Below are positions 18,387-39,646 of a stretch of DNA of 64,000 nt, in pieces (positions within the stretch are counted from its first letter, which is position 1; each line of letters begins with the position of its first letter). The DNA comes from Vibrio astriarenae. Its GTDB lineage: Bacteria; Pseudomonadota; Gammaproteobacteria; Enterobacterales; Vibrionaceae. Both the position numbers and the translations under genes were made by a program. The notes below the pieces were generated by a model that saw nothing but the letters and a program-made list of their open reading frames with translations, made no database searches and was not told where the DNA came from. The stretch covers positions 1,426,001 to 1,490,000 of the forward strand of contig NZ_CP047475.1 of assembly GCF_010587385.1 (NCBI RefSeq), read 5' to 3'.

Positions 18387-19265
18387 TTAGTCGGTAAAAA
18401 TCGCGGTCATTTTGCGATAAGCACTTGGCGAAGTGCCGTGTAACTGTTTGAAGTTACGATTGAAGCTCGAAACGGTTGGAAAACCAACGCGAAATCCAAT
18501 ATCAGCGACGCCAAGTTTTGTTTCGATTAATAGGGTTGCGGCGGCCTCGGCACGAATCTGCGTAATATAGCTCATGGGGGATTGCCCTGTTTGTTGTTTA
18601 AAGGCTCGGCAGAACGCATTTTTGTTCATGCTGGTCCGGTTCGCCAGGACTTCTAAGTCAAACTCTCGATGATAGTTGTGATGCATCCAGTCAATCGATG
18701 CAGATATTTTCGTGCTAGGTTGCACTTCGAGTTGGGCATCAACATGGTTCGCTAGATACTCGCACTGTCCATGTCGACTGATATCGGAGAGCAAAGAGAG
18801 GAACTGAATGACCGAACTGACGCCATTGCTGCCTATCAGTGATGAGACATTGTCAAATAGATAACTCGGAGCCGAACGTATGACCAACCCATGCCGCGAG
18901 TCTGAGATCATCTGTGCAATACGCGATAACTCAGGCGTATCAGAAAATAGGCTACCAAAACAGTCGGGTGTAAATTGAAGCACATAAGAGCAGAGAGGTT
19001 TCTTTGAGTCAGTCGCGTGAGAGGTGAAACGGTGAGGAATATCGGCGCCAATTAAAAAGAGATCACCTTCTTTGAAACTTGCGGTGCTACTGCCAACCAG
19101 TACCTCTCCATGCCCCTTAGTGATAAATACCAGTTCAGTTTCATGGTGAAAGTGATAAGGGTGTTCGAATTCTGCAGATTCAAATTGGTATGCAGTGAAC
19201 GAGCGATCTCTTCTTGTTATGGTTTCAGCCATTGCTTTCAAAGAAGGTACCCTCAGTGTCGTCAT
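18387..19265 (-). CDS. AraC family transcriptional regulator with N-terminal cupin
   Basis: An AraC/XylS regulator of about 292 residues. The N-terminal half is a cupin-like sensor (EHPYHFHHETELVFITKGHGEVLVG, split by the usual strands). The C-terminal half holds two helix-turn-helix motifs, ending in DIGFRVGFPTVSSFNRNFKQ and GTSPSAYRK, the canonical AraC signature. The longest frame opens with TTG at 19298; ATG at 19265 is preferred, with ATG at 19232 as an alternative. It is divergent from the PfkB-SSS cluster, so it most likely senses the sugar used by that cluster and activates it. It is separate from the TTGGTnnACCAA regulon, since no such palindrome was found in the shared promoter. Confidence 0.9.
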   Translation of the reverse strand: MTTLRVPSLKAMAETITRRDRSFTAYQFESAEFEHPYHFHHETELVFITKGHGEVLVGSSTASFKEGDLFLIGADIPHRFTSHATDSKKPLCSYVLQFTPDCFGSLFSDTPELSRIAQMISDSRHGLVIRSAPSYLFDNVSSLIGSNGVSSVIQFLSLLSDISRHGQCEYLANHVDAQLEVQPSTKISASIDWMHHNYHREFDLEVLANRTSMNKNAFCRAFKQQTGQSPMSYITQIRAEAAATLLIETKLGVADIGFRVGFPTVSSFNRNFKQLHGTSPSAYRKMTAIFTD

Positions 19266-19599
19266 ATAGATAGGTATAGAATAAAGACTATAGATCAATA
19301 GGGTAAGTGATCGGTTTCACGGTTTTGTTTAATGCTAATTATTGATCATTTTGCGCAAATTTCTGCGCAGATCGTTTGTTTATATCACTCTATGATAATC
19401 ACAGTGACTGGAATGGTGGCTCACAGGTAATCAATTCTGAAATATCACGACTGATTATAATACTCCACTCATACTGGCTAAGAATCCTCGAAAGAAAACG
19501 CGTATAGATTTTGAAACCATGGTAATCAAAATCCATTTAACTGGGGCTTAGCAAGTGAAACCTAATTGTTGACGGTAATGTCGGTGACAGGGGGAAATC
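19266..19599. promoter_or_regulatory. Divergent promoter region of the AraC regulator and PfkB-SSS cluster
   Basis: A 334-bp region without a gene. It contains two copies of the self-complementary hexamer TGCGCA at 19352 and 19364, 12 bp apart, within an AT-rich stretch, and an AT-rich TATGATAAT at 19391-19399 that could be a -10 element. These are candidate AraC-type sites only; no TTGGTnnACCAA palindrome was seen. Confidence 0.35.
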
Positions 19600-20544
19600 A
19601 TGAAAACAGTGGCTTGTGTCGGGATGGCGGTGGCTGACTTGATCGTTGGCCCACTAGAATCCTTCGAGTTTTGTGACGACGTAACCTTGGTTGATCACGT
19701 CAATGTTAAGCCAGGAGGCGATGCGGCAAATGTCGCGTTAAATTTGGCTGCGATGGGAGTGGATGTCAGTCTTTATTCAAAGCTTGGAGATGACTTGTTT
19801 GGCCGTCACCTATTGAAGGTATATCGCGTGCGTGGAATTGGGACCAAAACACTCTCTATTTCAAAGAAACACGCAACGGCGGTTGCGATAGGTTTAGTTC
19901 AACATGATGGCGAGCGTGTTTTTCTTTATCAAGGTGGAGCAGTGGATGCACTGACAATGGATGACATTAAAATTGGCGATGTTCTGGCGAAGGATATCCT
20001 CCATACCAGTGGTTTTTACCTGTTACCTGGATTAGAAAACAGTGGGTTAACCGAGTTGTTTTATACCGCGAAGCGGCAAGGGAAAATGACCTCACTCGAT
20101 GTTGGATGGGATGTCCAAGGCCGGTGGCTAGAGAAAATAGAGTCTCTTTTACCTTCGCTTACTTACTTTTTGCCCACTCTCAAGGAAGCGCAGCAAATCG
20201 CGCAGAAAATCTCGATTGAAGACTGTGCAGCCTTTTTTATTAGAAAAGGCGTTGAGGTTGTCGTGATTAACGCGGGCGTTGAAGGGGCCTATGTTTGTGA
20301 AGGGGAACGAAGCTATTGGGTTCATGGTGAACCGATGAGAAAAATCATTGACACTACCGGTGCAGGAGATGGCTTTGTTAGTGGGTTCCTAGCTGCAATA
20401 GCACGTGGCTATAGCATTTTTGAGGCGGTTAACGTCGCTAACAGAGCAGGGGCTGCGGTTATGCAACAGTATGGAAGCAGCGGCGCAATTACTCACTTTG
20501 AACAAGTGGATACTGCTAAAAAGTGTCATGACACAGTTATTTGA
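19600..20544 (+). CDS. PfkB family carbohydrate kinase
   Basis: A 314-residue ribokinase-fold sugar kinase. The N-terminal VKPGGDAANVALNLAAMG and C-terminal DTTGAGDGFVSGF motifs, including the catalytic Asp, are intact. GGGGGA lies just ahead of the ATG. It is the first gene of a rightward cluster that includes an SSS symporter, an aldehyde dehydrogenase, an APH-fold kinase and an enolase paralogue. The substrate is probably a sugar or keto-sugar imported by the symporter, but no feature separates fructokinase, ribokinase or KDG-kinase types. It is not a close copy of the kdgK gene in this window. Confidence 0.9.
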   Translation: MKTVACVGMAVADLIVGPLESFEFCDDVTLVDHVNVKPGGDAANVALNLAAMGVDVSLYSKLGDDLFGRHLLKVYRVRGIGTKTLSISKKHATAVAIGLVQHDGERVFLYQGGAVDALTMDDIKIGDVLAKDILHTSGFYLLPGLENSGLTELFYTAKRQGKMTSLDVGWDVQGRWLEKIESLLPSLTYFLPTLKEAQQIAQKISIEDCAAFFIRKGVEVVVINAGVEGAYVCEGERSYWVHGEPMRKIIDTTGAGDGFVSGFLAAIARGYSIFEAVNVANRAGAAVMQQYGSSGAITHFEQVDTAKKCHDTVI

Positions 20545-20737: not shown

Positions 20738-22333
20738 ATGATTATTCCAATCTCATTTGCTTTAGTGACAGGGGCGGTAGCGCTCGGGTCGTGGTATAAA
20801 GTTCGAAGTAAAAAGCGTGAACAAGAGTCCGCTACCTCCTATTTTCTGGCGGGCAGAGGGTTAACTGGTGTACTTATTGCGTCCTCATTGATGCTAACTA
20901 ACCTTTCTACCGAGCAGTTGGTTGGTCTCAATGCACAGGGCTACACAGCTAATATGACGCCGATGGCATGGGAAGTGTGTGCAGCGTTAACCCTGGTCGT
21001 GGTGGCTCTTTATTTGTTACCCAAATATCTCAGTGGCGGTGTGACGACCATTCCCGAATTTATTGAAGGCCGTTTCGGCAAAAGCACGATGTACTTTTGT
21101 ACCTTCCTATTTCTCTTCGGTTATGTGTTGAACCTCTTACCCCCAATTCTATATACAGGTTCGGTGGCCCTTGGGGGAATCTTTGATATTTCTGGCATTT
21201 TCCAAGTCTCTTACTGGGGCAGTATTTGGATAATGGTGGTTTCTATTGGTCTGGTAGGGGCGTGTTACGCCGTTTTTGGTGGTCTTAAAGCGATCGCCTA
21301 TTCCGATACATTTAACGGTGTTGGTTTGCTTGTAGGTGGTGTGGTCCTTATTCCGCTATTTGGCTTGTCAGCGTTGGGAGAAGGCAGTGTTGTAGCCGGC
21401 TTCCAGCACCTCATGACCGAACATCCCGAAAAGCTCAATGCGATCGGTGGTAAAGACGATCCGGTTCCTTTCTCAACCTTTTTCACCGGTATGTTGATTC
21501 TCAATCTCTTCTATTGGGGAACAAACCAGTCGATTATTCAACGAGCATTAGGCGCACAAAACCTCGCAGAAGGACAAAAAGGGGTACTGTGGGCAGGTAT
21601 GTTGAAGCTACTGGGTCCATTCTTCTTACTGATCCCAGGTATTATCGCGTATGCGATGTTTGGTCCTGATCTACCTAACGGTGAAGTTGCTTACCCAATG
21701 TTGGTCCGTGAGGTGTTGCCGACGCCTTTGATTGGTTTCTTTGCTGCAGTTTTGTTTGGTGCAATTCTGAGCTCATTTAACAGTGTATTACACAGTACTT
21801 CTACCTTGTTTACCTTGAACGTGTATAAGCCACTGATTAACAAGAATGCAAACGACCGTGATCTTGTTAGAACCGGTAAGATGTTCGGTGCGGTCGTGGG
21901 ATTGTTTGCGATCTTGGTTGCGCCATTTATCTTTTATGCCCCCGAGGGTTTCTACCAGTATTTCCAAACCATCAATAGTTTCTATATGGCGCCGATGTTC
22001 ACCATCATTGTGGTGGGCTTGGTGACAAAGCGTGTCCCGGCGATGGCAGCAAACATCGGTATTGTAGTGTTTATGCTAGCTTATGCACTGACAAGTTTTG
22101 TGTTTAAACCTGACATTCATTTCCTACACCTAACAGGCATATTATTCCTCGCAACAGCGGCTTTGATGCTGGTGATCGGACACTTCTTCCCACAAAAAGA
22201 GGTGTATGAACCAGAAGCAAAAGATGAAGTTGAATTGACGCCTTGGAAACACGCTAAAAGGTTCTCTGGTGTGATCTGCATTGGTGTTATTGCACTTTAT
22301 GTCATTTTCTCGCCTTTGGGGATTGCTCAGTAG
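20738..22333 (+). CDS. Sodium/solute symporter family (SSS) transporter, sugar (SGLT-like) type
   Basis: A 531-residue protein with about 14 membrane helices. The TSYFLAGRGLTG, TIPEFIEGRFG, FGGLKAIAYSDTFNG and NLFYWGTNQSIIQRALGA segments match the Vibrio Na+/galactose transporter vSGLT subgroup closely in position. It would import a sugar with Na+. AAGGA precedes the ATG. It lies about 190 bp after the PfkB gene, separated by a hairpin, and about 215 bp before the aldehyde dehydrogenase. The sugar itself cannot be read from the sequence; galactose or another agar-derived sugar would suit the genomic setting. Confidence 0.92.
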   Translation: MIIPISFALVTGAVALGSWYKVRSKKREQESATSYFLAGRGLTGVLIASSLMLTNLSTEQLVGLNAQGYTANMTPMAWEVCAALTLVVVALYLLPKYLSGGVTTIPEFIEGRFGKSTMYFCTFLFLFGYVLNLLPPILYTGSVALGGIFDISGIFQVSYWGSIWIMVVSIGLVGACYAVFGGLKAIAYSDTFNGVGLLVGGVVLIPLFGLSALGEGSVVAGFQHLMTEHPEKLNAIGGKDDPVPFSTFFTGMLILNLFYWGTNQSIIQRALGAQNLAEGQKGVLWAGMLKLLGPFFLLIPGIIAYAMFGPDLPNGEVAYPMLVREVLPTPLIGFFAAVLFGAILSSFNSVLHSTSTLFTLNVYKPLINKNANDRDLVRTGKMFGAVVGLFAILVAPFIFYAPEGFYQYFQTINSFYMAPMFTIIVVGLVTKRVPAMAANIGIVVFMLAYALTSFVFKPDIHFLHLTGILFLATAALMLVIGHFFPQKEVYEPEAKDEVELTPWKHAKRFSGVICIGVIALYVIFSPLGIAQ

Positions 22334-22549
22334 GTGAACTATTTTAGGCAAGCCGGCGGTGCAACGCCTTCCTGCTAAGCTGTCGGCTGCCTTTCTTTGA
22401 CAATAAAACTGCCTTTTACGGTGGTGAAATCACTACCTGAAACCGAGCTGGTTTTATAGGTGAAAGCGCACATTGAAGTGGTAGTCCTTACGTTTCAATT
22501 GTGACAGCAAGTCCTCATGATCAATCCAATAACACAAGGAGTGTTTGTT

Positions 22550-24028
22550 ATGACAATCCAGACGTTACACCCTAAAACTTTATCTTTTTTAGAAACCAAA
22601 CCACTTCCAATGTTTGTCAACGGAGAATGGAAAAGCACGAAACACACATTAAGCGTGGAAAACCCGGCAACGGGTTCGCAGATTGCCCAAGTCTGTTTGG
22701 CAGACGCACAAGATGTAGATAGTGCAGTGATGGTGGCAGAGAGTGCGTTTGCACCATGGGCAGCATTAAGCCCTGCGAAAAGGGCTGACAAATTAACCAA
22801 GCTCGCGGAGCTTATTCAGAGAGATGCTCAAGTGCTCGCCGATTTAGAGTGCGTTGATGTGGGTAAGCCTGTTGCTGCGGCGATGGGGTTCGACGTGCCT
22901 TTTGCTGCTCAATGCTTTGAGTATTTTGCACAGGTCGCGCAAGAAACAGAGTATGAGATTGAGCTGGGTTTAGAAGTGACCGATAGCCAGACAATAAAGC
23001 GACCTTATGGTGTGGCGGCTTTTGTTTTTCCATGGAATTTCCCTTTGACGCTCTGTGCTTGGGGCATCGCACCAGCGTTGGCTGCGGGAAATACTGTCGT
23101 CATCAAGCCGGCCTCAGAGACACCGTTATCCACCCTGTATCTAGCGAAACTCTGCGAAGAGGCTGGATTTCCAAGAGGCGTCGTCAATGTGGTCACTGGA
23201 CAAGGAAGAGTTGCAGGTGAAGCGTTAATCAATCATCCAAAAATCAAGCTTATGTCGTTTACAGGATCGACAGAGGTGGGTAAGCACATTGGTGAAGTGT
23301 GTGGAAGAAACTTGGTTCCGGCGAAACTAGAGCTTGGTGGTAAAGGTGCTGCTGTTGTGTGCCGCGACGCCGATGTTGATGCCGCAGTCGAAGGGCTGAC
23401 TGGTGCGCTAACTCTCAATGCTGGGCAAGTATGTTGTACCGCTTCTCGATGGTACGTACACGATTCGATATACGATGAGTTTGTCGCTAAAGCGAAACAA
23501 GCGTTCGAAGCAATTCCTATCGGTAATGGCTTGGATTCGGAATCGGTTATGGGACCGATGTGCACTCACAGACAGATGAGCAAAGTATTGCAATGTATTG
23601 CTGAAGCGCAAGCTGCCGGAGCCGAGATTGTTACAGGTGGTGACAGGGTCACTGATGATGAGCGACTAAAAGGTTACTTTGTTCAGCCTACATTGCTGGC
23701 TGGCAAAGATGATAACCCGTGGGCACAAGAAGAAATTTTTGGTCCAGTGGCCTTCTTACTCAAATTTACTGATGAAGATGAAGTCGTTGAGCGTGCAAAT
23801 CGTAACCCTTACGGTCTTGCCAATAGCGTGTGGACTCAAGATATGGTTAAAGCAAAAGATATCGCTGCGCGCTTGGTGTCAGGTAATAGTTGGATCAACG
23901 CTCACAATGTCTTTGAGTATGGGCTTCATTATGGTGCTTGTAATCAAAGTGGTTGCGGTGGTGGTGTCAACAGTCGCGCCACATTCGAAGGTTATCTCAG
24001 ACACCAGTCTGTGGCGGCAATCCGATAG
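22550..24028 (+). CDS. NAD(P)-dependent aldehyde dehydrogenase
   Basis: A 492-residue ALDH-superfamily enzyme. Coenzyme and active-site motifs are present: FPWNFPLTLCAWGIAPALAAG, SFTGSTEVGK, ELGGKG with the general-base Glu, and the catalytic Cys in LNAGQVCCTASR. AAGGAG at 22536-22541 supports ATG at 22550. It heads a tight three-gene unit: nine bases to the APH-fold kinase, which overlaps the enolase paralogue by one base. That order suggests aldehyde to acid, then phosphorylation, then an enolase-type reaction. In agar degraders an ALDH also makes 3,6-anhydro-L-galactonate, so this gene is an alternative candidate for that step. The exact aldehyde is unknown. Confidence 0.92.
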   Translation: MTIQTLHPKTLSFLETKPLPMFVNGEWKSTKHTLSVENPATGSQIAQVCLADAQDVDSAVMVAESAFAPWAALSPAKRADKLTKLAELIQRDAQVLADLECVDVGKPVAAAMGFDVPFAAQCFEYFAQVAQETEYEIELGLEVTDSQTIKRPYGVAAFVFPWNFPLTLCAWGIAPALAAGNTVVIKPASETPLSTLYLAKLCEEAGFPRGVVNVVTGQGRVAGEALINHPKIKLMSFTGSTEVGKHIGEVCGRNLVPAKLELGGKGAAVVCRDADVDAAVEGLTGALTLNAGQVCCTASRWYVHDSIYDEFVAKAKQAFEAIPIGNGLDSESVMGPMCTHRQMSKVLQCIAEAQAAGAEIVTGGDRVTDDERLKGYFVQPTLLAGKDDNPWAQEEIFGPVAFLLKFTDEDEVVERANRNPYGLANSVWTQDMVKAKDIAARLVSGNSWINAHNVFEYGLHYGACNQSGCGGGVNSRATFEGYLRHQSVAAIR

Positions 24029-24037
24029 AGGTTATGC

Positions 24038-25012
24038 ATGATTTTAGACATATTGAAAAAGCACAATGTCGTCTGTAAAGATCATGCGACAGCCACTCCG
24101 CTAACAGGCGGAGTGAGCTGTGAGATCTATTTAGTCGAAGATGATAATAGCCGTTTAGTGGTTAAACGGGCATTAGAGAAGCTCAAAGTAGAAAAAGAGT
24201 GGTTCGCAGATACCAGTCGTAATCTGTATGAGCAACGCTATTTGAAATACGTTGGTGAGCGCTTTCCTCAGTACGTTCCAAAAATACTGCACTCTTTTGA
24301 AAAAGAGCGTCTGTTTACGATGGAGTATTTTCCAGAGCGTTTTAAAGATTGGAAGAAAGCGTTGATGAAAGGGGAAGTGAGCGCAACGATAGCAAACCAT
24401 ATCGGCCAAGCACTGGGCAATATTCATAAATCGAGCTGGCAAGATCCCGATGCAGAGGCTCAATTTGATTCTGATAACAATTTTTATCAGTTGAGGTTAG
24501 AGCCTTACTTTGAATCCATGCTTGAAGAGCACCATGACCTTAACACACAGCTAAAGTCTCTTTGTTTATCAGTGAGCACCACGAAAAAATGCTTAGTCCA
24601 TGGTGATTTCAGTCCGAAGAATATTCTGGTATCAGACGATGAAGTGAAAATCGTCGATTGTGAGGTTGCTTGGTATGGTGACCCAGCGTTCGACGTCGCG
24701 TTTATGTTGCATCATTTGATGCTGAAAGCGATGCACTTCAATGATCCTCATTACGTCAATGCTGCCGATGAATTTCTAGCAGCCTACAAAAGTGCTGTGG
24801 GAGAAGGGCTCTATCTTGAGGTAAATGAAGCGAAAGTCGCAAAGTTAGTTGCTGCGATGATGCTTGCACGCATCGATGGTAAATCACCTGTCGAATATCT
24901 ATCAGAGCAGGAAAAAACCACAATGAGGTCCAGCCTCAAAGCCCTACTTAAACAGACATTTACGACAGTTCACCATTTAACAGAAGAGCTAGGATTAAGG
25001 AGCAATAAATAA
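24038..25012 (+). CDS. APH/choline-kinase-fold phosphotransferase
   Basis: A 324-residue small-molecule kinase of the aminoglycoside phosphotransferase fold. The Brenner-type catalytic loop HGDFSPKNILV and the metal-binding VDCEVAWYGDPAFDVAF are intact. The family phosphorylates hydroxyl groups on diverse metabolites (choline, methylthioribose, hydroxylysine, homoserine), and resistance is unlikely here. Its stop overlaps the enolase start by one base (TAATG), implying translational coupling. Between an aldehyde dehydrogenase and an enolase paralogue, it would plausibly phosphorylate a hydroxy acid; glycerate-like acids are the simplest idea. No close homologue with known function is recognised. 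Confidence 0.85.
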   Translation: MILDILKKHNVVCKDHATATPLTGGVSCEIYLVEDDNSRLVVKRALEKLKVEKEWFADTSRNLYEQRYLKYVGERFPQYVPKILHSFEKERLFTMEYFPERFKDWKKALMKGEVSATIANHIGQALGNIHKSSWQDPDAEAQFDSDNNFYQLRLEPYFESMLEEHHDLNTQLKSLCLSVSTTKKCLVHGDFSPKNILVSDDEVKIVDCEVAWYGDPAFDVAFMLHHLMLKAMHFNDPHYVNAADEFLAAYKSAVGEGLYLEVNEAKVAKLVAAMMLARIDGKSPVEYLSEQEKTTMRSSLKALLKQTFTTVHHLTEELGLRSNK

Positions 25013-26310
25013 TGAAGATTTTATCTGTTGATGCTTATCAGATTTTTGACTCTCGAGGTCAGCCCACCGTTGAGGCTGTGGTGATATTAGAAAATGGTGT
25101 ACAGGGTATCGGCTTAGTCCCTTCCGGTGCATCGACTGGACAATTTGAAGCGTTAGAGTTACGTGATGGTGATAAAGCCCGTTTTTTAGGAAAATCGGTA
25201 TACCAAGCAATCACCAATATAAAAACTGAACTCGCACCAGCGCTAAAAGGCAAAAGCGTTAATCAGCAATCTGAGTTAGATAAGCTTATGTGCGAGATTG
25301 ACGGGACAGCGAACAAGTCTCGCTTAGGTGCTAATGCGATATTAGGCGTTTCATTAGCGATAGCTGATGCCAATGCCAAAAATCACGGACTACCGCTATT
25401 TAAAACACTGTCGCCAAACTGCTCTGCCAATTTGCTCCCACTACCGGAAATCCAATTAGTGGGAGGGGGGGCTCATGCGCAGTGGCGCACAGATATCCAA
25501 GACTTCTTACTAATAGTGAATGGTGCAAAAACCTACAACGAAACGCTAGAGGTCACTTACAACATCTATCGAACCGCCGAAATGATGTTGAAAGAGCGTG
25601 GGTTATTAGCAGGTGCAGCAGATGAAGGTGGTTTCTGGCCAACTTTTGATAGCCACGAAGCCATCTTTGAGTTTGTCGTTGAAGCCATTGCTATGGCCGG
25701 TTATCAGCCGGGCATTGAAGTCTCTATATCCTTGGATATTGCAGCGAGCGATCTATACGCCAATGGTCGCTACCACTTACCTTTGGATGGCAAAAGCTAT
25801 ACGTCAGAAGAGTTTTTGGCTTTGATGTTGGATTGGTGTGAGCGCTATCCAGTCTTGTCAATTGAGGACCCATTCGCCGACACGGACTTCGCGGCTTGGA
25901 AAGCCTTTACTCACGCTGTGGGAGATCGAATTCAAGTGATTGGTGATGACTTGTTTACCACCAATCTAACGCGGATCGAGCTGGGTATTGAACAGAAACT
26001 CGCAAACAGTGTTCTCATCAAATTGAATCAAGTTGGTACGGTATCAGAAACTCTGCAAGCCATAGCGATGACGCAAGAGGCAGGTTGGTTGCCTGTAGTC
26101 TCAGCTCGCTCAGGGGAAACCGAAGATGCATTTATTAGTCACCTAGCGGTGGCAACCAACTCAGGCCAACTGAAAGTCGGTTCTTTTACCCGCAGTGAGC
26201 GAATGGTGAAGTGGAATGAGGTCATTCGTATTGAGCGCGCTTTGGAGGGACAAGCTAATTTCGTTGGTGGTGACATCTTTAATAAATTGAGAGAGTTAGA
26301 GCTGGTATAA
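25012..26310 (+). CDS. Divergent enolase paralogue (phosphopyruvate hydratase-like)
   Basis: A 432-residue enolase-fold protein of full length. Kept residues (E. coli numbers in brackets): His155 (159), catalytic Glu205 (209), metal ligands Asp242, Glu285 and Asp312 (246, 290, 317), catalytic Lys337 (342), Arg366-Ser367 and Lys388 (393). Two substrate-site positions differ: Asp164 replaces Glu168, and Ala365 replaces His370 in the usual SHRSGETED loop. The catalytic pair remains, so an enolase-type reaction on a different or larger substrate is plausible. AAGGAG precedes the ATG, the gene is coupled to the APH-fold kinase, and a strong terminator follows. It is unlikely to be the housekeeping enolase, which normally sits beside pyrG. 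Confidence 0.88.
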   Translation: MKILSVDAYQIFDSRGQPTVEAVVILENGVQGIGLVPSGASTGQFEALELRDGDKARFLGKSVYQAITNIKTELAPALKGKSVNQQSELDKLMCEIDGTANKSRLGANAILGVSLAIADANAKNHGLPLFKTLSPNCSANLLPLPEIQLVGGGAHAQWRTDIQDFLLIVNGAKTYNETLEVTYNIYRTAEMMLKERGLLAGAADEGGFWPTFDSHEAIFEFVVEAIAMAGYQPGIEVSISLDIAASDLYANGRYHLPLDGKSYTSEEFLALMLDWCERYPVLSIEDPFADTDFAAWKAFTHAVGDRIQVIGDDLFTTNLTRIELGIEQKLANSVLIKLNQVGTVSETLQAIAMTQEAGWLPVVSARSGETEDAFISHLAVATNSGQLKVGSFTRSERMVKWNEVIRIERALEGQANFVGGDIFNKLRELELV

Positions 26311-27382: not shown

Positions 27383-27449
27383 TCAATGTTTGATCTATCT
27401 TTGTTCGCGAGTAGAAACTTACTCTTCATAAACAAACAAAGGAATGAGA

Positions 27450-28808
27450 ATGAAATCCATAATTAAAACTCTGACATTGCTACCAATATTTTTAACTAGC
27501 ACGACGTTAATGGCTGAAGACTGGCGAGAAATCCCCATTCCAGCACCGTTAGAAGATGGGCAGAGCTGGGAGTTACAAGAGGCATACTCTGATTCGTTTA
27601 ATTATACGGGTAAGGGCGACTCTTTCCGTAGTAAGTGGAATGATACCTACTTTCACGGTTGGACAGGACCTGGTTTAACCTATTGGCAAAGTGATGAGTC
27701 ATGGGTAGATGATGGCAACTTGATAATCAGTGCCTCCCGTCGTCAGGGAACAGAGATGGTGAATGCGGGCGTTGTGACGTCTAAGACAAAAGTGAAATAT
27801 CCTATTTTTCTGGAGGCCAATATAAAGGTGAGTGGCTTAGAGCTATCATCAAATTTTTGGCTTCTTAGTGAAAATGATCAACGAGAAATCGATGTATTGG
27901 AAGTGTATGGTGGCGCTGAAGACGAATGGTTTGCCAAAAATATGTCAACAAACTTCCATGTATTTTTCCGCAATGAAGACAACTCAATTCGTAGCGATTT
28001 CAACGATCAGACCCACAATGAGCCGCAATGGGGTACTTATTGGCGTGATGGGTTCCATCGCTTTGCGGTGTATTGGAAAAGCCCAACTGAAGTGACTTTT
28101 TATATCAATGGCATAGAGACACCGAAAGGTTCTTGGGAAGACGTCGTAATGAAAGATAAAGATTACACGGGAGCCATCCTAGATAAATCAACCTACAACA
28201 TGGATCAAGAGATGTTCATTATTCTTGATACTGAAGACCATTCGTGGCGTTCTGAGGCTGGAATAATCGCCAAAGATGAAGACCTAGCAGATGATAGTAA
28301 GAACAAAATGTATGTGGATTGGATACGTGTTTATAAGCCAGTCGGTGGAGATGACAATGGTAATGTGACCGTACCGTCAGGGTATACAAACACACAATTT
28401 GTGCATAGTGACTTGTGTTTGGATGTCAAAGATGGAGCAACTTGGAACGGCAGTACTTATCAGCAATGGGTGTGTAATACGGGCAACCCGAACCAACGAT
28501 TTGGGTTTGAAGAAGTCGCGACGGGAGAGTATTTAATTAAATCCAAACGTAGTCAACTGTGCTTAGAGCTCAAGCCCGGTAGCAATCAATGGCAGGACGG
28601 TGCCATCATTCAGCAATATGTGTGTAATTCAGCTGAAGAGAATCAACGTTGGACGCTATTTGATAAAGGCAGCCAGACGTTTGAGATTCGAAGCAAGGCA
28701 ACAGGTAAGTGTTTAGAGCTTGCTGACAATCAGGGAAGCAACGGCGGGACAGTGCAGCAATGGTCATGTGATGGTGGTAATAACCAGCGATTGAAATTTA
28801 TACAATAA
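27450..28808 (+). CDS. Secreted GH16 beta-agarase with C-terminal ricin-type (CBM13) lectin domain
   Basis: A secreted hydrolase of about 452 residues. A Sec signal peptide ends near MAEDW. The GH16 catalytic jelly roll follows to about residue 310, with the catalytic motif EIDVLE (nucleophile Glu, assisting Asp, acid/base Glu) and the agarase-typical WTGPGLT, LSSNFWLLS and EVYGG segments. The last 140 residues are a ricin B beta-trefoil with three QxW-type repeats (QQWVC, QRWTL, QQWSC) that would bind carbohydrate. It should cut agarose beta-1,4 links to neoagaro-oligosaccharides outside the cell. ATG at 27444 is also possible, but AAAGGA abuts it, favouring 27450. Porphyranase activity is a less likely alternative. 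Confidence 0.92.
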   Translation: MKSIIKTLTLLPIFLTSTTLMAEDWREIPIPAPLEDGQSWELQEAYSDSFNYTGKGDSFRSKWNDTYFHGWTGPGLTYWQSDESWVDDGNLIISASRRQGTEMVNAGVVTSKTKVKYPIFLEANIKVSGLELSSNFWLLSENDQREIDVLEVYGGAEDEWFAKNMSTNFHVFFRNEDNSIRSDFNDQTHNEPQWGTYWRDGFHRFAVYWKSPTEVTFYINGIETPKGSWEDVVMKDKDYTGAILDKSTYNMDQEMFIILDTEDHSWRSEAGIIAKDEDLADDSKNKMYVDWIRVYKPVGGDDNGNVTVPSGYTNTQFVHSDLCLDVKDGATWNGSTYQQWVCNTGNPNQRFGFEEVATGEYLIKSKRSQLCLELKPGSNQWQDGAIIQQYVCNSAEENQRWTLFDKGSQTFEIRSKATGKCLELADNQGSNGGTVQQWSCDGGNNQRLKFIQ

Positions 28809-29205: not shown

Positions 29206-29997
29206 ATGAAAACTTTAAAGGTAGTATTTACGTTATTGCTGACCGCTTCATTATCAATGGTGTCGTTGGTTGCGAAGGCATCCCAGTTAGATGTCATTCA
29301 ACAACAGGGCGTTTTGAAAGTTGCTGTTCCCCAAGATTTCCCCCCTTTTGGTTCCGTTGGTTTGGATCTGAAGCCTCAAGGCTATGACATTGATATGGCA
29401 GAGTTTTTGGCAAAAGAGCTCGGTGTCAAATTAGAGTTGGTACCAGTAACAAGCGCGAACCGAATTCCTTACCTACAAACACGTAAAGTAGATCTCATCA
29501 TCTCTAGCCTTGGTAAAAATGAAGAGCGTAAGAGAGCCATCGATTTTACTCATGCTTATGCACCATTTTTCTTGGGCGTCTTTGGTACTGATGGAGAAGC
29601 GGTTTCCTCAGCTGAAGATCTAAAAGGCAAGGTGGTTGGCGTAACTCGCGGCTCAGTTGAGGATATTGAATTGAGCAAATTGGTATCGGCAGACACTGTG
29701 CTTAAGCGCTACGAAGATAACAATGCAACGCTATCAGCTTACCTATCTGGTCAGGTGAGCTTGATTGCAACGGGTAACTTGGTGGTCACTGAAATCGCTA
29801 ACCGTCACCCAAGTAAAGCGCCTCAGGTTAAGTTCATGCTGAAAAACTCGCCTTGTTATATTGGTCTTATGAAAGGTGATGTGGTTCTGCAGAACAAAAT
29901 TAACGAGCTGATCACTAAAGCAACAGAAGAAGGCACGCTAGAGTCTATTTCCCAGAAATGGCTTAAGGCGTCATATCCAGCAGACTTAGGCGCATAA
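29206..29997 (+). CDS. ABC transporter substrate-binding protein, polar amino-acid family (SBP_bac_3)
   Basis: A 263-residue periplasmic binding protein with a signal peptide (cleavage near VAKAS). Family-3 segments include LKVAVPQDFPPFG, GYDIDMAEFLAKELG, and the ligand-site region NRIPYLQTRKVDLIIS followed by ERKRAIDFTHAYA. It delivers a small polar ligand, usually an amino acid, to the two permeases and ATPase encoded next. Because the rest of the cluster encodes ureide-type amidohydrolases and an aminotransferase, the ligand may be a ureido or carbamoyl compound such as allantoate rather than a standard amino acid. That is inference. Confidence 0.9.
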   Translation: MKTLKVVFTLLLTASLSMVSLVAKASQLDVIQQQGVLKVAVPQDFPPFGSVGLDLKPQGYDIDMAEFLAKELGVKLELVPVTSANRIPYLQTRKVDLIISSLGKNEERKRAIDFTHAYAPFFLGVFGTDGEAVSSAEDLKGKVVGVTRGSVEDIELSKLVSADTVLKRYEDNNATLSAYLSGQVSLIATGNLVVTEIANRHPSKAPQVKFMLKNSPCYIGLMKGDVVLQNKINELITKATEEGTLESISQKWLKASYPADLGA

Positions 29998-30010
29998 CTA
30001 GGATTGCCTC

Positions 30011-30679
30011 ATGACGTATTCATTAGACTTTGCTGGACTTGCTCCTTACCTGCCGCAGTTTGCGGCAGGTGTATGGACCACTATTCAACTTACTTTGTTA
30101 TCAACATTTTCTGGTCTCGTATTGGGCACCATTTGTGCCGCGGGGCGCACAAGTCGTCTTAAAGGGTTACGAATAGTTTGTGCAAGCTATATCGAATTGA
30201 TTCGCAACACTCCTTTTATTGTGCAGCTTTTCTTCATCTTTTTTGGCTTGCCTGCGCTCGGACTACGACTGAGTGCGTGGGAGGCGGGTGTTTTAGCCAT
30301 GGTAATGAATTTGGGTGCGTACAGTGCGGAGATCATTCGTGCTGGCATCGAGGCTACGCCAAAGGGACAGTGGGAAGCAGGTAAAGCACTGGGGTTGACC
30401 AAAGTACAGACCCTGATTCATATCGTGTTGTCGCCGGCTTATCAGCGAGTGTATCCGGCTATTGTGAGTCAATGCATTATTGTCATGCTTGGCTCCGCTG
30501 TTGTGTCTCAGATATCACTCGAAGAGCTAACATTTGCAGCTAACTTTGCCCAGTCACGCAGTTTCTTGAGTTTTGAGGCTTACATGTTGACCGCGGCGAT
30601 TTACCTTCTACTCGCGATTTTGATGCGCTTTATGTTCGCAAAAATCAAGCAAGTTAGCTTTAAAAATCCATCAATTTAG
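30011..30679 (+). CDS. Amino-acid ABC transporter permease (HisM-type), first subunit
   Basis: A 222-residue inner-membrane permease with about five helices. The cytoplasmic EAA loop GIEATPKGQWEAGKALGLT, which contacts the ATPase, is well conserved, as is the N-terminal VWTTIQLTLLSTFSGLVLG segment of the His/Glu/Gln/Arg permease family. It lies 13 bp after the binding-protein gene and 11 bp before a second, different permease, so the channel is a heterodimer. Confidence 0.92.
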   Translation: MTYSLDFAGLAPYLPQFAAGVWTTIQLTLLSTFSGLVLGTICAAGRTSRLKGLRIVCASYIELIRNTPFIVQLFFIFFGLPALGLRLSAWEAGVLAMVMNLGAYSAEIIRAGIEATPKGQWEAGKALGLTKVQTLIHIVLSPAYQRVYPAIVSQCIIVMLGSAVVSQISLEELTFAANFAQSRSFLSFEAYMLTAAIYLLLAILMRFMFAKIKQVSFKNPSI

Positions 30680-30690
30680 AGGCGTAGAAT

Positions 30691-31341
30691 ATGGTTGAGT
30701 TTTCTGACTGGGATATTTTCCGAAACTTATTATTGGCTGCCAGATGGACAGTATTACTTTCTCTTCTAGCATTTGTGTTTGGTGGAGCGCTAGGGGCGAT
30801 TCTCACTTTTCTGCATAGTACTAAGAGCCCACTATTTAGGGGAATAATCAAAGTTTATGTAGAGATATTCCAAGGTACACCGTTACTTATGCAGCTGTTT
30901 CTAACCTTCTTTGGTATATCACTGCTAGGTATCGAAATAAGCCCATGGACGGCGGCAATCTTGTCACTAACACTATTTAGTAGCGCATTTTTTCATGATA
31001 TCTGGCGTGGCTGTATCGAAGCATTGCCCAAAGGTCAGTGGGAGGCATCTAAGTCTCTGGGCTTGACCTACTTTGACACAATGAAGCACGTGATAGCACC
31101 GCAGGCGTTTAAGATTTGCATTGCCCCTACCGTCGGTTTTTCTGTGCAAATAGTGAAGGGGACAGCATTGGCCTCAATTATTGGCTTTGTAGAGCTGACG
31201 AAGGCCGGAACCATGCTCAACAATGCAACGTTTCAACCGTTCAAAGTATTTGCCTTTGTTGCTGTTCTCTATTTTTTAATCTGTTTCCCACTATCAGCGT
31301 ACGCTCGTTACTTGGAGAGTAAAAATCATGTCACTGGTTAG
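30691..31341 (+). CDS. Amino-acid ABC transporter permease, second subunit
   Basis: A 216-residue permease of the same family, with the EAA loop CIEALPKGQWEASKSLGLT and about five helices. It overlaps the ATPase gene by 14 bp, indicating translational coupling. It pairs with the preceding permease to form the pore of the importer. Confidence 0.92.
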   Translation: MVEFSDWDIFRNLLLAARWTVLLSLLAFVFGGALGAILTFLHSTKSPLFRGIIKVYVEIFQGTPLLMQLFLTFFGISLLGIEISPWTAAILSLTLFSSAFFHDIWRGCIEALPKGQWEASKSLGLTYFDTMKHVIAPQAFKICIAPTVGFSVQIVKGTALASIIGFVELTKAGTMLNNATFQPFKVFAFVAVLYFLICFPLSAYARYLESKNHVTG

Positions 31342-32056
31342 TATTGATAAAGTCCATAAATATTATGGCGAAAACCATGTTTTAAAGGGCGTCGACCTAA
31401 AGATCAAAGCGGGAGAAGTCGTATCGATTATCGGGCGCAGTGGCTCGGGAAAAAGTACATTATTGCGCTGTTTAAATGGCCTTGAAACCTATGAAGAGGG
31501 CGCAATTGTCGTAGATCGCCAGGCGGTCGAAAATGATGATTATAAACTGCGTATTCTCAGTCGCAGTGTTGGCATGGTTTTTCAAAGCTTTAACTTGTTT
31601 CCACACAAGACTGCGGGTGAAAACATCATGTTGGCACCCATGCTAGTCCTAAACAAGAGCCGTGAAGAAGCGAAAGTTCTCGCGCAAGATTTGTTGGACA
31701 AGGTTGGCCTATCAGACAAGTTTGATGCATACCCAAGCAACTTATCAGGTGGCCAGCAACAGCGCGTGGCCATTGCTCGCTCGTTGGCTATGTCTCCAAA
31801 AGTTCTGTTGTGTGACGAGATTACTTCAGCACTCGACCCAGAGTTAGTTGGTGACGTTCTCGAAGTATTAGAGCAACTCAAAGCAGAAGGAATGACATTG
31901 ATTCTCGTGACTCATGAAATGAATTTTGCGCGAGATGTCGGTGATACCGTGGTGTTTATGAATGAAGGCAAAGTATGGGAAAGCGGTGAGAGTAATGCTG
32001 TTTTTGCCAACCCGCAGACACCTGAACTGCAATCATTCCTTTCAGCGGTTCGTTGA
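31328..32056 (+). CDS. Amino-acid ABC transporter ATP-binding protein
   Basis: A 242-residue ABC ATPase of the GlnQ/HisP class. Walker A (GRSGSGKST), the Q-loop (GMVFQSFNLFPH), the signature [14 protein letters not shown] and Walker B (VLLCDEITSALDP) are intact; Ile replaces the usual Pro after the Walker B Glu, a mild deviation. It powers the importer formed with the two upstream permeases. The start lies inside the preceding permease gene. Confidence 0.94.
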   Translation: MSLVSIDKVHKYYGENHVLKGVDLKIKAGEVVSIIGRSGSGKSTLLRCLNGLETYEEGAIVVDRQAVENDDYKLRILSRSVGMVFQSFNLFPHKTAGENIMLAPMLVLNKSREEAKVLAQDLLDKVGLSDKFDAYPSNLSGGQQQRVAIARSLAMSPKVLLCDEITSALDPELVGDVLEVLEQLKAEGMTLILVTHEMNFARDVGDTVVFMNEGKVWESGESNAVFANPQTPELQSFLSAVR

Positions 32057-32094
32057 TTGAGAACATTGAACAGAATTCAAGGAACGGAAGATAT

Positions 32095-32907
32095 ATGACC
32101 AACCCGATGTTAGAGCGGATCGCTGAACACTACAGCGAGCTTACGAACAATAATCGCCGTATTGCTGATTACTTGATGGTGAACCCTGAAAAAATCCTAA
32201 TACTGTCGACCAATGAGGTGGCTCAAGAGTGTTCGGTCTCCAAAGCGAGTGTCAGTCGTTTCATTCGAAAATTGGGTTATGAGGATCATGGAAGCCTACG
32301 CAGTGAGCTATTGGATGAGCGCGACAAAGGCACGCCAATGACGATGCCTCTCGGCCCGTCGACGTCGGGTTTTAATGCAGAAGTCGCGGCTCTAGGTACG
32401 CTTTGGAATCAATTGGAAAGCATGGAGCTAAGCTCCGTTATTGAGTGTTTAGCGAGGGCGCCTAAAGTCAAAGTTATCGGGTACCGAAACAGCTACCCAG
32501 TGGCAATGCACTTTCGTCAACAGTTGCTTCAGTGTCGACCACAGGTGGAGTTGCTGCCAATTCCGGGGCAGACCATCGGTGAAGATATTGCCCAGATTGG
32601 CAAGGATGAGTATGTGGTTCTCGTTGGAATACGACGCCGGATAAAGGGCTTCTCCGAGTTGGTTGAACGTTTGCCTCGTGAGCAAACGCTTTTGATTACG
32701 GATCAGACGGGCATTAAATATCAGTCACAGGTTGCGTGTACCTTGGTTTGTCCAATGGGAAATGATCGTCCTCTTGATAGTTATGCTGCGCCAATGGCAC
32801 TGGTTTCTTACTTAAGTAATGCCGTATATGACGAGTTGGGGCATCTGTCTCAAGAAGTCAGTGACTCAATTTCAAAAACGTACAGCATTTTGAACGAATT
32901 AGAATAA
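32095..32907 (+). CDS. RpiR/MurR family transcriptional regulator
   Basis: A regulator of about 270 residues. The N-terminal helix-turn-helix (STNEVAQECSVSKASVSRFIRKLGY) is the RpiR type, and the C-terminal half is a SIS-like domain (VKVIGYRNSYPVAMHFRQQL). GGAACGGAAG upstream favours ATG at 32095 over the TTG that opens the longer frame at 32053. It sits between the ABC importer and the amidohydrolase genes, so it probably controls this cluster. SIS domains normally bind phosphosugars, yet RpiR proteins also occur in purine and ureide operons, which suits the neighbours. Confidence 0.9.
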   Translation: MTNPMLERIAEHYSELTNNNRRIADYLMVNPEKILILSTNEVAQECSVSKASVSRFIRKLGYEDHGSLRSELLDERDKGTPMTMPLGPSTSGFNAEVAALGTLWNQLESMELSSVIECLARAPKVKVIGYRNSYPVAMHFRQQLLQCRPQVELLPIPGQTIGEDIAQIGKDEYVVLVGIRRRIKGFSELVERLPREQTLLITDQTGIKYQSQVACTLVCPMGNDRPLDSYAAPMALVSYLSNAVYDELGHLSQEVSDSISKTYSILNELE

Positions 32908-32932
32908 AAAAAGTGAAAGTTGGACGGGATAA

Positions 32933-34126
32933 ATGACAGTAAAGTACAGCGATCAAAGCGTATATTGCGCTCAGGGTCCAAAGTTATTACCGGCGCTTGA
33001 GCATGGAGTGTTGGATGGTTTGAGCTTTGTGTTTAAAGACCTTTTTGATATCGAAGGGTATGTCACAGGAGCAGGTAATCCAGCCTGGCTAAACACCCAT
33101 GAACCAGCAAGCAAAACTTCTCAACTAGTTCTCAAGTTACTTTCTCAGGGAGCAAAGTGCTTAGGACGAGTCCAAACCGATGAACTGGCGTACAGTCTAA
33201 ATGGTGTAAACATTCACTATGGCACGCCACTCAACCCTATCGCACAAGATTGCCTGCCAGGAGGCTCGTCAAGCGGCAGTGCAGTGGCGGTAGCCCGAGG
33301 CGATGTGAGTTTCTCTTTGGGTACCGATACGGGCGGTTCAGTGCGAGTTCCTGCGAGTTATTGTGGTCTCTTTGGTTTGCGCCCTACATGGGGAAAGCTA
33401 TCTTTGGAACACTGCTTTTCGTTAGCGAAGAGCTTCGATACCGCAGGTATTTTTAGTCAAGATCTCTCAATTATCGAGCGGGTTTACCAGGCACTTTGTG
33501 GAGTAGAACAAAACGGCAACCCATCAAAAACACTTCTGCTAGATAACACCTTATCTGCCCTTATGGGGGACGAACGACTCGCCACAATAATGCGTCTGAT
33601 AGAGCGCTCTGGCATATCGCTGATTAAATCAGACCTTTTAGGTAAAGGGCGTTACAGCTTAGAAGAGTTAAGTCTTTTGTTCAGGCAGATCCAGGGGTAT
33701 GAAATCATAGATGAGCACAATGATTGGCTAGAACAATGGCAGCATACCCTTGATACACCAATTCAGAAGCGAGTGGAGTGGTCACGTACGCTATCGTCTC
33801 ATGACTATCTACAGGCAAAACAGAGACAAAATGTGTTTGCTGATTGGTTAGAAGAAGAGTTGATGAAAGCTGATGCGATGCTATTGCTTCCCACCACACC
33901 TGGAGCACCACTAAAACTCAATATGCCAGATGAAGAGTTAGATCGATATCGCTCAGACCTTATGGGACTCACCAGTATCGCAGGGCTGAGCGGCACACCC
34001 CAACTGCATATTCCGCTAAGTGGCTTAAAAATCGGGCCGTGTGGTGTTTCTCTTTTAGGTGTTAAGGATAGTGAAATGTCCGTTATCCAAACAGCCAAAA
34101 TGTTGACTAAAGGAGAAAGGGAATGA
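32933..34126 (+). CDS. Amidase signature family hydrolase (AMI1/AtzE-like)
   Basis: A 397-residue amidase-signature enzyme. The catalytic Ser-cisSer-Lys set is visible: Lys in FVFKDLFDIEGYVTG, the Gly-Ser stretch GGSSSGSAVAVA, and the nucleophile in GTDTGGSVRVPASYCGLFG. The N-terminal part resembles plant AMI1-type amidases. It overlaps the next gene by four bases. In Klebsiella hpx clusters an AtzE-type amidase hydrolyses oxalurate beside an oxamate amidohydrolase; a similar task is likely here, although the small AtzG-type partner of that system is absent. At 397 residues it is shorter than typical AtzE or GatA. Confidence 0.85.
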   Translation: MTVKYSDQSVYCAQGPKLLPALEHGVLDGLSFVFKDLFDIEGYVTGAGNPAWLNTHEPASKTSQLVLKLLSQGAKCLGRVQTDELAYSLNGVNIHYGTPLNPIAQDCLPGGSSSGSAVAVARGDVSFSLGTDTGGSVRVPASYCGLFGLRPTWGKLSLEHCFSLAKSFDTAGIFSQDLSIIERVYQALCGVEQNGNPSKTLLLDNTLSALMGDERLATIMRLIERSGISLIKSDLLGKGRYSLEELSLLFRQIQGYEIIDEHNDWLEQWQHTLDTPIQKRVEWSRTLSSHDYLQAKQRQNVFADWLEEELMKADAMLLLPTTPGAPLKLNMPDEELDRYRSDLMGLTSIAGLSGTPQLHIPLSGLKIGPCGVSLLGVKDSEMSVIQTAKMLTKGERE

Positions 34127-35694
34127 CCTTTCAAACGTCTTTTACAGCGCCTCATTTTAAAGCGGCACAGGTGGGCCAGCAGATCCTAGACAATGGCGGG
34201 ACAGCCAGTGAAGCCATGGTTGCTGCTGCCGCGATGGTCGCTGTGCAATATCCACATATGAATAGCATAGGTGGTGACGGGTTTTGGTTGATTTGTCGTG
34301 AAGGAGAAAATCCAATTGCTATTGATGCTTGTGGTCGTTCTGCAGCATCTCTCGATGTTGATAAATATCGAGCAATGGGCAGCGAATTACCAGAAAGTGG
34401 AGGTGAGGCCTCGATTACCATGGCGGGTACGATTTCTGGCTGGCAGAAGGCGTTAGAGGTGAATAGTGAAGGCATGTCGCTAAGCGAACTCCTGGCTCCA
34501 GCAATCCAAGCTGCACGAGAAGGGGTAGAGGTGACACAAAGCCTAGTCAATGCGAGTGAAAAAACGTACCAGCGCCTTAAGCACCTTACAGATTTTTCGA
34601 ACTTATATCTTAATCATCAACAAGTCTTAGCTAAGGGTGATGTTATCTATAACCCTGCACTCGCTTCGACTCTAGAGCGCCTGTGTGAAGCAGGGTTAGA
34701 AGACTTTTATCGTGGTGAGCTGGCAAGTCAGATGGCACAGGAGCTGCAACATCTGGGCAGCCCGCTTACGCTAGAGGATTTTCATAGTCATTACGCTAAA
34801 GTGAGCCAACCGCTAAATGTCGAAACATCAAAAGGTCAGCTTTATAACTTGGGGGCGCCCACCCAGGGGCTTGCCTCTCTTCTGATTCTGGCTATTTACG
34901 ATCAATTATCCCCTCAAGCGAGTAACGAGGTTGAACATATTCACCTATTAGTCGAGGCGACTAAGCAGGCCTTCATTATTCGAGATCAGATGATAACTGA
35001 CGAAGAGTACCTGACTCGACCATTGCAAGGTTTCTTGTCACAAGCCGTCATTGACCGCTGTACATGCAATATCTCACTGAGTAAGGCAATGCCATGGCCC
35101 CATGATGCCAAACCGGGCGATACCATATGGATGGGTGCAACAGACCAATACGGGACCATGGTGAGCTTCATTCAAAGTATCTATTGGGAATTTGGCTCTG
35201 GTGTGGTGTTACCGTCATCCGGTGTGCTCTGGAACGTAAGAGGAAAAAGCTTCTCTTTGGACCCGTCGCATCACAATGTGTTGGCTCCAAATAAGAAGCC
35301 ATTTCACACGTTGAATCCAGCCTACGCTGAGCTGAATGACGGGACTCGTATGGTCTACGGCACGATGGGAGGAGAGGGGCAGCCGCAGACACAGGCTTGC
35401 CTATTTAGCCGTCATATTTATCAGAATCTATCACTGTCTAGTTCCATCGCAATGCCACGTTGGTTATTAGGTCGAACTTGGGGTGATAGCACGAATAATC
35501 TGCGACTTGAGCAAGAACTGTATGACACCTATGCACAACGGCTAATGGAGCTAGGGCATCAAGTCACAGCCGTCGACAATCTTAATGAATTAATGGGTCA
35601 CGCCGGGGCAATCACTCTGGATAAGCAAGGAAAGGCCATCGCCGCAAGCGACCCTCGAAGCGATGGTAGAAGTTATGTAGGAGAACAACAATGA
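34123..35694 (+). CDS. Gamma-glutamyltransferase-fold Ntn hydrolase (HpxW/oxamate amidohydrolase-like)
   Basis: A 523-residue Ntn hydrolase of the GGT family. Typical segments are NGGTASEAMVAAAAMVAVQYPHMNSIGGDGF (shown here as two parts of the N-terminal subunit) and, after the predicted self-cleavage point, Thr334 in GDTIWMGATDQYGTMVSF followed by SIYWEFGSGVVLP. There is no signal peptide, so it is cytoplasmic, unlike true periplasmic GGT. The same features mark Klebsiella HpxW, which hydrolyses oxamate to oxalate and ammonia. Overlap with both neighbours (ATGA-type junctions) shows a tightly coupled operon. The oxamate assignment is inference from family and context. Confidence 0.86.
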   Translation: MTFQTSFTAPHFKAAQVGQQILDNGGTASEAMVAAAAMVAVQYPHMNSIGGDGFWLICREGENPIAIDACGRSAASLDVDKYRAMGSELPESGGEASITMAGTISGWQKALEVNSEGMSLSELLAPAIQAAREGVEVTQSLVNASEKTYQRLKHLTDFSNLYLNHQQVLAKGDVIYNPALASTLERLCEAGLEDFYRGELASQMAQELQHLGSPLTLEDFHSHYAKVSQPLNVETSKGQLYNLGAPTQGLASLLILAIYDQLSPQASNEVEHIHLLVEATKQAFIIRDQMITDEEYLTRPLQGFLSQAVIDRCTCNISLSKAMPWPHDAKPGDTIWMGATDQYGTMVSFIQSIYWEFGSGVVLPSSGVLWNVRGKSFSLDPSHHNVLAPNKKPFHTLNPAYAELNDGTRMVYGTMGGEGQPQTQACLFSRHIYQNLSLSSSIAMPRWLLGRTWGDSTNNLRLEQELYDTYAQRLMELGHQVTAVDNLNELMGHAGAITLDKQGKAIAASDPRSDGRSYVGEQQ

Positions 35695-36920: not shown

Positions 36921-36938
36921 ACAAGGAATGGCTTGAAA

Positions 36939-39045: not shown

Positions 39046-39068
39046 GGCATTACAGGGAAGAGGATGGA

Positions 39069-39644: not shown

Positions 39645-39646
39645 CT

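Follow-up and report, generated by a model that had tools for sequence, protein, structure and literature searches.

Why should a bacterium that already has a housekeeping enolase keep a second enolase gene in one operon with an aldehyde dehydrogenase (ALDH) and a small-molecule kinase? This question is raised by a locus of Vibrio astriarenae (contig NZ_CP047475.1, positions 1,426,001 to 1,490,000; this stretch of 64,000 nucleotides is called the window below), for which an original prediction had proposed an aldehyde-to-phosphoenol pathway modelled on the lower part of non-phosphorylative Entner-Doudoroff metabolism. We propose, with a probability of about 0.6, that the kinase, which has the APH fold, and the enolase paralogue are dedicated to one pathway, in which a C3 aldehyde would be converted into a 2-hydroxy acid, then a 2-phospho-acid and finally, by β-elimination, phosphoenolpyruvate (PEP). 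With the same confidence, the operon would represent the lower half of the catabolism of a hexose that is barred from the normal C6-phosphate routes; this hexose would most likely be a galactose derivative of red-algal agar or porphyran. As a rule, enolase has a fixed housekeeping role; paralogues with two invariant active-site changes and a constant kinase partner in 12 families suggest that the reaction it catalyses was recruited for other substrates.

The observed gene set agrees with what had been predicted (Table 1). The ALDH and kinase genes are separated by 9 bp, the enolase ATG at 25012 overlaps the kinase stop codon by one base, and Pfam and NCBIfam recognise an SGLT-type symporter, a PfkB-family kinase and a divergent AraC-family regulator alongside. 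The ALDH starts at the ATG at 22550, with a second in-frame ATG upstream at 22517, and among the 25 listed of the 44 NCBIfam models that matched it, none had its cut-off reached. The small-molecule kinase had been described as an APH-fold protein other than the known glycerate kinases; indeed, it passes the APH model (PF01636) and no glycerate-kinase family model of Pfam or NCBIfam matched it. Its nearest solved relative is methylthioribose (MTR) kinase (E 1.4e-16), MTR kinase is also its top NCBIfam match (90 bits, cut-off 275), and its other Pfam matches, to ecdysteroid-kinase-like, protein-kinase and fructosamine-kinase families, are weak.

We then asked how constant the kinase-enolase pair is. 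With the window kinase as bait, 33 of 296 genomes of the family gave matches, six of them strong (E 1.2e-75 or better), while the remaining 27 were weak (E 2.4e-8 or worse) and were taken as other APH proteins. A nine-row kinase profile found, besides the window genome, 2 of 394 genomes at the order level, 5 of 369 at the class level and 8 of 398 at the phylum level, and in the order of genome G1311 it found 7 of 200, four of them new. Together with Vibrio hannami, the 25 genomes collected provide 26 loci from 12 families, none of which was dropped; among them, G000 is the window's own genome, and G148 is taken as Photobacterium rosenbergii, G437 as Aliagarivorans marinus and G384 as Alginatibacterium sediminis. 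Neighbouring genes in the relatives were called by a simple script, and those for which no family search was made were named by eye from their first residues, so that these names are weak.

The enolase paralogue is present in all 26 kinase loci and adjacent to the kinase in 24. In 22 loci the kinase precedes the enolase on the same strand with a spacing of about 32 bp or less (one pair being fused), two loci have the adjacent pair in reverse order, and in two congeneric loci the genes lie about 4.5-8 kb apart. The original prediction had made its case depend on conservation of this neighbourhood outside the strain, and the pair is conserved far beyond it. Chance pairing was rejected on the same count of 26 out of 26. 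The strongest sign that both proteins serve consecutive steps is their fusion into a single protein of 753 residues in G128 (L040:4139-6397), where the fused gene lies between a GntP-like permease gene and a gene of the Na+/H+-antiporter family. Within the family, a pattern coding for the enolase motif SARSGETED was found in six of 281 genomes, which are exactly the six kinase-bearing ones, and the reversed control pattern gave no match. In the Aliagarivorans paralogue (L005, L048), an in-frame TAG near residue 376 reflects either gene decay or a sequencing error. No paper describing a kinase-enolase pair of this kind was found in the open-access PMC literature searched; what appears to be new is this module with its diagnostic active site, the chemistry of which is predicted from sequence.

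The paralogue of the window is 47% identical to the sole other enolase of its genome, the housekeeping copy. Exactly two enolases (E 1e-60 or better) were found in each of the 21 genomes searched out of the 26, one being 60-100% and the paralogue 42-49% identical to the housekeeping enolase of G000. The idea that the paralogue is a displaced housekeeping enolase was rejected, a separate canonical copy being present in all 21. We aligned the 26 paralogues with the 21 housekeeping enolases (47 rows) and numbered the residues as in yeast enolase; the yeast names beyond those in the Chloroflexus study cited below are those we take to be equivalent. The active site had been predicted to be altered, and two positions separate the groups completely: position 168 is Asp in all paralogues and Glu in all housekeeping copies, and position 373, which presumably is also close to the 3-OH of the substrate, is Ala in all paralogues and His in all housekeeping copies. 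In addition, 23 of the 26 paralogues have a Trp two places after the DEGG motif, where all housekeeping copies have Ala, and an Arg occurs in the mobile active-site loop of 22 of 26 paralogues and of no housekeeping copy.

The paralogue shares with housekeeping enolase (phosphopyruvate hydratase) the fold family, the metal ligands and the base and acid residues; S39, H159, E211, D246, E295, D320, K345, R374, S375 and K396 are unchanged in all 26. In the Chloroflexus enolase, the counterparts of E168, E211, K345, R374 and S375 contact 2-phosphoglycerate, K345 is the base and E211 is the acid that assists departure of the 3-OH (PMC4450660). From the residue pattern and these contacts, it appears that the proton abstraction machinery has been kept and that the environment of the C3 leaving group has changed. 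Paralogues and housekeeping enolases fall on two sides of one branch of the tree (quick search, SH-aLRT 99). An AlphaFold model of the paralogue has a mean pLDDT of 75.1 with several active-site stretches below 50, and no geometry was taken from it, as the active-site loops are too uncertain.

What precedes these steps is indicated by a longer operon in the relatives. In G266 and P. rosenbergii, eight genes face the divergent araC gene in the order isomerase, PfkB, class II aldolase, symporter, aldose-epimerase-like protein, ALDH, kinase and enolase, and the AraC protein of the window is 85% and 64% identical, respectively, to theirs. The enzyme set is the same in V. hannami, G254 and G132; there, an ABC transporter gene set lies upstream and the run contains no symporter gene. 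In the window, deletions have left a remnant of this longer operon: within the 301 bp between araC and pfkB, where G266 and P. rosenbergii have the intact isomerase gene, tblastn detects an isomerase fragment, and upstream of the ALDH gene, at the place of the intact epimerase-like gene in the same two genomes, it detects a frame-broken epimerase-like fragment. Both score above the best value of 22.7 bits in 100 dinucleotide-shuffled sets. No trace of a class II aldolase was found by tblastn next to the window operon. The aldolase of G266 belongs to PF01116 (270 bits), and the intact epimerase-like protein is a weak match to Aldose_epim (23.9 bits, cut-off 27).

The isomerase has homologues in seven of the eight window-clade genomes searched, including G000 (contig C2), and none was found in G128, the genome of the fusion, nor in G948, G1290 or G1066, the last of which is not a kinase-bearing genome. 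It matches the SftI model at 115.7 and 132.7 bits, far from the equivalog level (cut-off 700), and searches against solved structures gave no match. In G000 and G437, an isomerase copy forms a separate module with PfkB and aldolase genes; the missing isomerase and aldolase steps could be provided by this module in trans. The second module of G000 (C2, around 890 kb; L082/L083) also has an alcohol dehydrogenase gene and a divergent araC gene, and four sulfatase-family genes lie about 20-58 kb away.

We infer the reactions, the C3 acid and PEP as the product from these protein families. The symporter, whose best solved relative is the sodium/glucose cotransporter 2xq2, would import the sugar; the SftI/FucI-like isomerase would convert it into a ketose; the PfkB protein (best solved relative E. 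coli YdjH, E 1.2e-35) would phosphorylate C1 of the ketose; and the class II aldolase would yield dihydroxyacetone phosphate and a C3 aldehyde. The ALDH would then oxidise the aldehyde to a 2-hydroxy acid, the APH-fold kinase would phosphorylate the acid at its 2-OH, and the enolase paralogue, which has the usual Mg2+ sites, Lys345 as base, Glu211 as acid and a remodelled C3 leaving-group pocket, would β-eliminate the C3 substituent to form PEP. The window strain would need the second module, on the other contig, for the isomerase and aldolase steps.

This order of reactions is only partly that of the original prediction. The neighbourhoods fit its sequence of aldehyde, acid, 2-phospho-acid and phosphoenol, and the order of reaction types (ALDH, 2-kinase, enolase) is, in our reading, shared with the lower non-phosphorylative or branched Entner-Doudoroff route, although here the kinase is an APH-fold protein without a glycerate-kinase model match and the enolase is a dedicated, altered one. 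The upper half does not look like non-phosphorylative Entner-Doudoroff metabolism: the isomerase, 1-kinase and class II aldolase of the longer operon look like sulfo-EMP2, and we corrected the assignment for this reason. In three other loci, the pair is accompanied by an SDR protein and a diketo-acid-hydrolase-like protein, possible upper halves of an Entner-Doudoroff type.

Sulfo-EMP2 acts on a sugar with a C6 sulfonate, using a FucI-like isomerase, a 1-kinase and a PF01116 aldolase (PMC9594981). Its set of SqvD, SqiK and SqiA, followed by oxidation or reduction of sulfolactaldehyde (SLA), likewise comprises a FucI/SftI-like isomerase, a ketose 1-kinase, a PF01116 class II aldolase and oxidation of a C3 aldehyde (PMC9594981, PMC12890257). 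Nevertheless, SqiK belongs to PF00365, whereas the operon kinase is a PfkB protein (PF00294), the operon isomerase is far under the equivalog cut-off of SqvD/SftI, and sulfo-EMP2 ends at the acid, whereas the operon goes on through the kinase and the enolase paralogue. Membership in sulfo-EMP2 was rejected on account of the isomerase score and the different kinase family; by analogy, the full operon resembles a sulfo-EMP2 extended to PEP.

This likeness also raises the idea of a sulfo substrate, in which sulfoquinovose or a hexose 6-sulfate would give 3-sulfolactate or 3-sulfoglycerate and the paralogue would eliminate sulfite or sulfate. Such a route would suit the parallel upper steps (PMC9594981), SftI as the closest match of the isomerase and the extra Arg in the active-site loop, and in G000 a gene of the TauE/SafE family (sulfite exporter; L082:599-1321, 95 bits) is located some 13 kb away from the second isomerase module. 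We consider it unlikely, since no sulfoquinovosidase or sulfite exporter was recognised, by eye, beside the operons themselves, sulfoquinovose would leave the agar context described below unexplained, and neither of two sulfoquinovose reviews uses the word enolase in its main text (PMC9594981, PMC12890257). Sulfatase-family genes are present in all nine genomes tested and therefore neither support nor exclude a sulfated sugar.

Some copies of the pair stand in an agar context. Eight kilobases upstream of pfkB, the window encodes an anhydrogalactonate cycloisomerase (10204-11292; 821 bits to solved 5xd7), next to a KDPG aldolase above its cut-off (9569-10189) and to KDG-kinase-like and dehydrogenase-like proteins below theirs. 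The same cycloisomerase gene adjoins the operon in G266, with an Agarase_CBM protein about 17 kb off. Agarase_CBM proteins follow directly after the isomerase module in G437, are found no more than about 30 kb from the pair in G1311 and G1496, and are encoded three times each on the operon contigs of G254 and G132, 34-95 kb away. G1311 has a β-porphyranase too, and in G1496 GH42 and GH36 genes come after the pair.

A candidate from this habitat is 6-O-methyl-D-galactose, for which the C3 acid would be 3-O-methyl-D-glycerate and the paralogue would eliminate methanol to give PEP, with neither oxygen nor a P450. The known demethylation of this sugar is a P450-dependent oxidation to galactose and formaldehyde (PMC10033563), and the mechanism of its anaerobic demethylation is described as still to be discovered (PMC12316285). 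The P450 route possibly shares substrate and habitat with the operon, and it was rejected for the window clade, as no P450 was found in eight of eight genomes at E 1e-10; this absence alone says little, and G1311, G1496 and G1074 do have P450s. A sugar blocked at C6 requires a C1-phosphate route such as the one proposed here, a symporter akin to sodium/glucose cotransporters would be suitable, and the retention of the catalytic residues together with the altered C3 pocket is in favour of this sugar. Near the pair of G1311 there is also a galactonate-dehydratase-like gene (276 bits, cut-off 311). On the other hand, the new loop Arg would be superfluous for a methyl group, and the agarase-free genomes with the pair have no obvious methylated sugar. 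We regard 6-O-methyl-D-galactose as a tentative first choice. More speculatively, the module may represent a new phosphate-activated C-O cleavage, in which a 3-O-substituted glycerate is 2-phosphorylated and the paralogue expels the C3 substituent to form PEP. In agar degraders, 6-O-methyl-D-galactose would in this way be demethylated without oxygen and with release of methanol, which would answer the question of the anaerobic route (PMC12316285). If the link to agar is true, a gap in the consumption of red-algal galactans would be filled, possibly without oxygen.

Another, rather doubtful candidate is L-glycerate, formed from L-galactose or another L-sugar through L-glyceraldehyde and converted through L-2-phosphoglycerate into PEP by an enolase of changed stereospecificity. 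The ketoses formed by known PF01116 aldolases are 3S and L-tagatose is 3R, so that this route clashes with the stereochemistry of the aldolase, and the unchanged base and acid residues of the paralogue do not favour it either. L-galactose, as its 6-sulfate, is part of porphyran (PMC12316285), and such a simple acid would account for the wide spread and varied neighbours of the pair. In L066, L068 and L090 an SDR protein and an FAA_hydrolase (FAH) protein stand beside the pair, and the L066 hydrolase resembles the 2,4-didehydro-3-deoxy-L-rhamnonate hydrolase of the L-rhamnonate pathway (334 bits, cut-off 500). In six of the 26 loci (L063, L064, L070, L087, L088 and L089) the pair is adjoined by a D-isomer-type 2-hydroxyacid dehydrogenase, which speaks against L-glycerate and for either 3-O-methyl-D-glycerate or D-glycerate. 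A final family check confirmed the FAH proteins in L068 and L090, the dehydrogenases in L063, L070, L087, L088 and L089, the agarase of G266 and the TauE/SafE gene, which favours the sulfo substrate; it strengthened the arguments on several sides, and the odds among the substrates are unchanged. The SDR and FAH proteins, the dehydrogenase and the GntP-like permease could all deliver a small 2-hydroxy acid.

Several observations weigh against the proposed dedicated pathway to PEP. The paralogue passes the NCBIfam phosphopyruvate-hydratase equivalog TIGR01060 (505 bits, cut-off 300) and could be a plain enolase isozyme. In that case the kinase would be a new D-glycerate 2-kinase and the pair would serve ordinary D-glycerate salvage, glycerate to 2-phosphoglycerate to PEP being a known route; we consider this improbable and the least likely of the substrates, because the changes E168D and H373A are fixed in all paralogues while the housekeeping enolase is kept in every genome searched. 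With the tree rooted at its midpoint, the paralogues of L087 and L089 lie on the side of the housekeeping enolases, and the tree thus does not demonstrate one common origin of all paralogues. PEP as the presumed product rests on homology, and L052 is the only locus for which a pyruvate kinase gene close to the pair was confirmed. The window strain has lost three of the eight operon genes. Agarase_CBM is absent from seven of the nine genomes tested (G128, G148, G384, G948, G1006, G1074 and G1290), and agar thus explains at most part of the distribution of the pair. Outside the window clade the neighbours differ (SDR and FAH proteins, 2-hydroxyacid dehydrogenase, GntP-type permease), which suggests that the substrate may differ between clades.

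Table 1. Features of the window that bear on the kinase-enolase operon, with their positions in the window.
Feature	Position	Strand	Evidence
3,6-Anhydro-L-galactose (agar sugar) catabolic genes, context	4714..11292		matches at 10204-11292 and 9569-10189
AraC-family regulator, divergent	18387..19298	-	HTH_18 84 bits, AraC_binding 43 bits (Pfam)
Decayed SftI-like isomerase remnant, N-terminal part	19441..19539	+	tblastn with intact G266 isomerase, 37.4 bits
PfkB-family sugar kinase, putative ketose 1-kinase	19600..20544	+	PfkB 199 bits (Pfam)
SGLT-type sodium:solute symporter	20738..22333	+	NCBIfam PRK10484 726 bits (cut-off 401); Pfam SSF 155 bits
Decayed aldose-epimerase-like remnant, C-terminal part, frame broken	22326..22498	+	two collinear tblastn pieces, 36.2 and 30.4 bits
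Aldehyde dehydrogenase (ALDH)	22550..24028	+	Aldedh 511 bits (Pfam)
APH-fold small-molecule kinase, putative 2-hydroxy-acid 2-kinase	24038..25012	+	APH (PF01636) 69 bits (cut-off 23)
Enolase paralogue with E168D and H373A, putative PEP-forming lyase	25012..26310	+	Enolase_N 170 bits, Enolase_C 297 bits (Pfam)

Other genes were noted near the pair and elsewhere in the window. In L052 (97-2872), genes for a pyruvate kinase and a 3-oxo-tetronate kinase lie within 5 kb of the pair. The window gene at 27444-28808 looks by eye like a GH16 enzyme, of which Pfam and NCBIfam detect just the lectin part. A protein of 1066 residues with FG-GAP-like repeats, recognised by eye (11485-14685), has homologues of 36-39% identity near the agarase genes of G1311 and G1496. 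Finally, one run of genes at 29206-40174 looks like a separate catabolic cluster, with an amidase identified by Pfam and, by eye, an amino-acid ABC transporter, an RpiR-type regulator, gamma-glutamyltransferase-like, aminotransferase-like and amidohydrolase-like genes and paired chromate-transporter-like genes.

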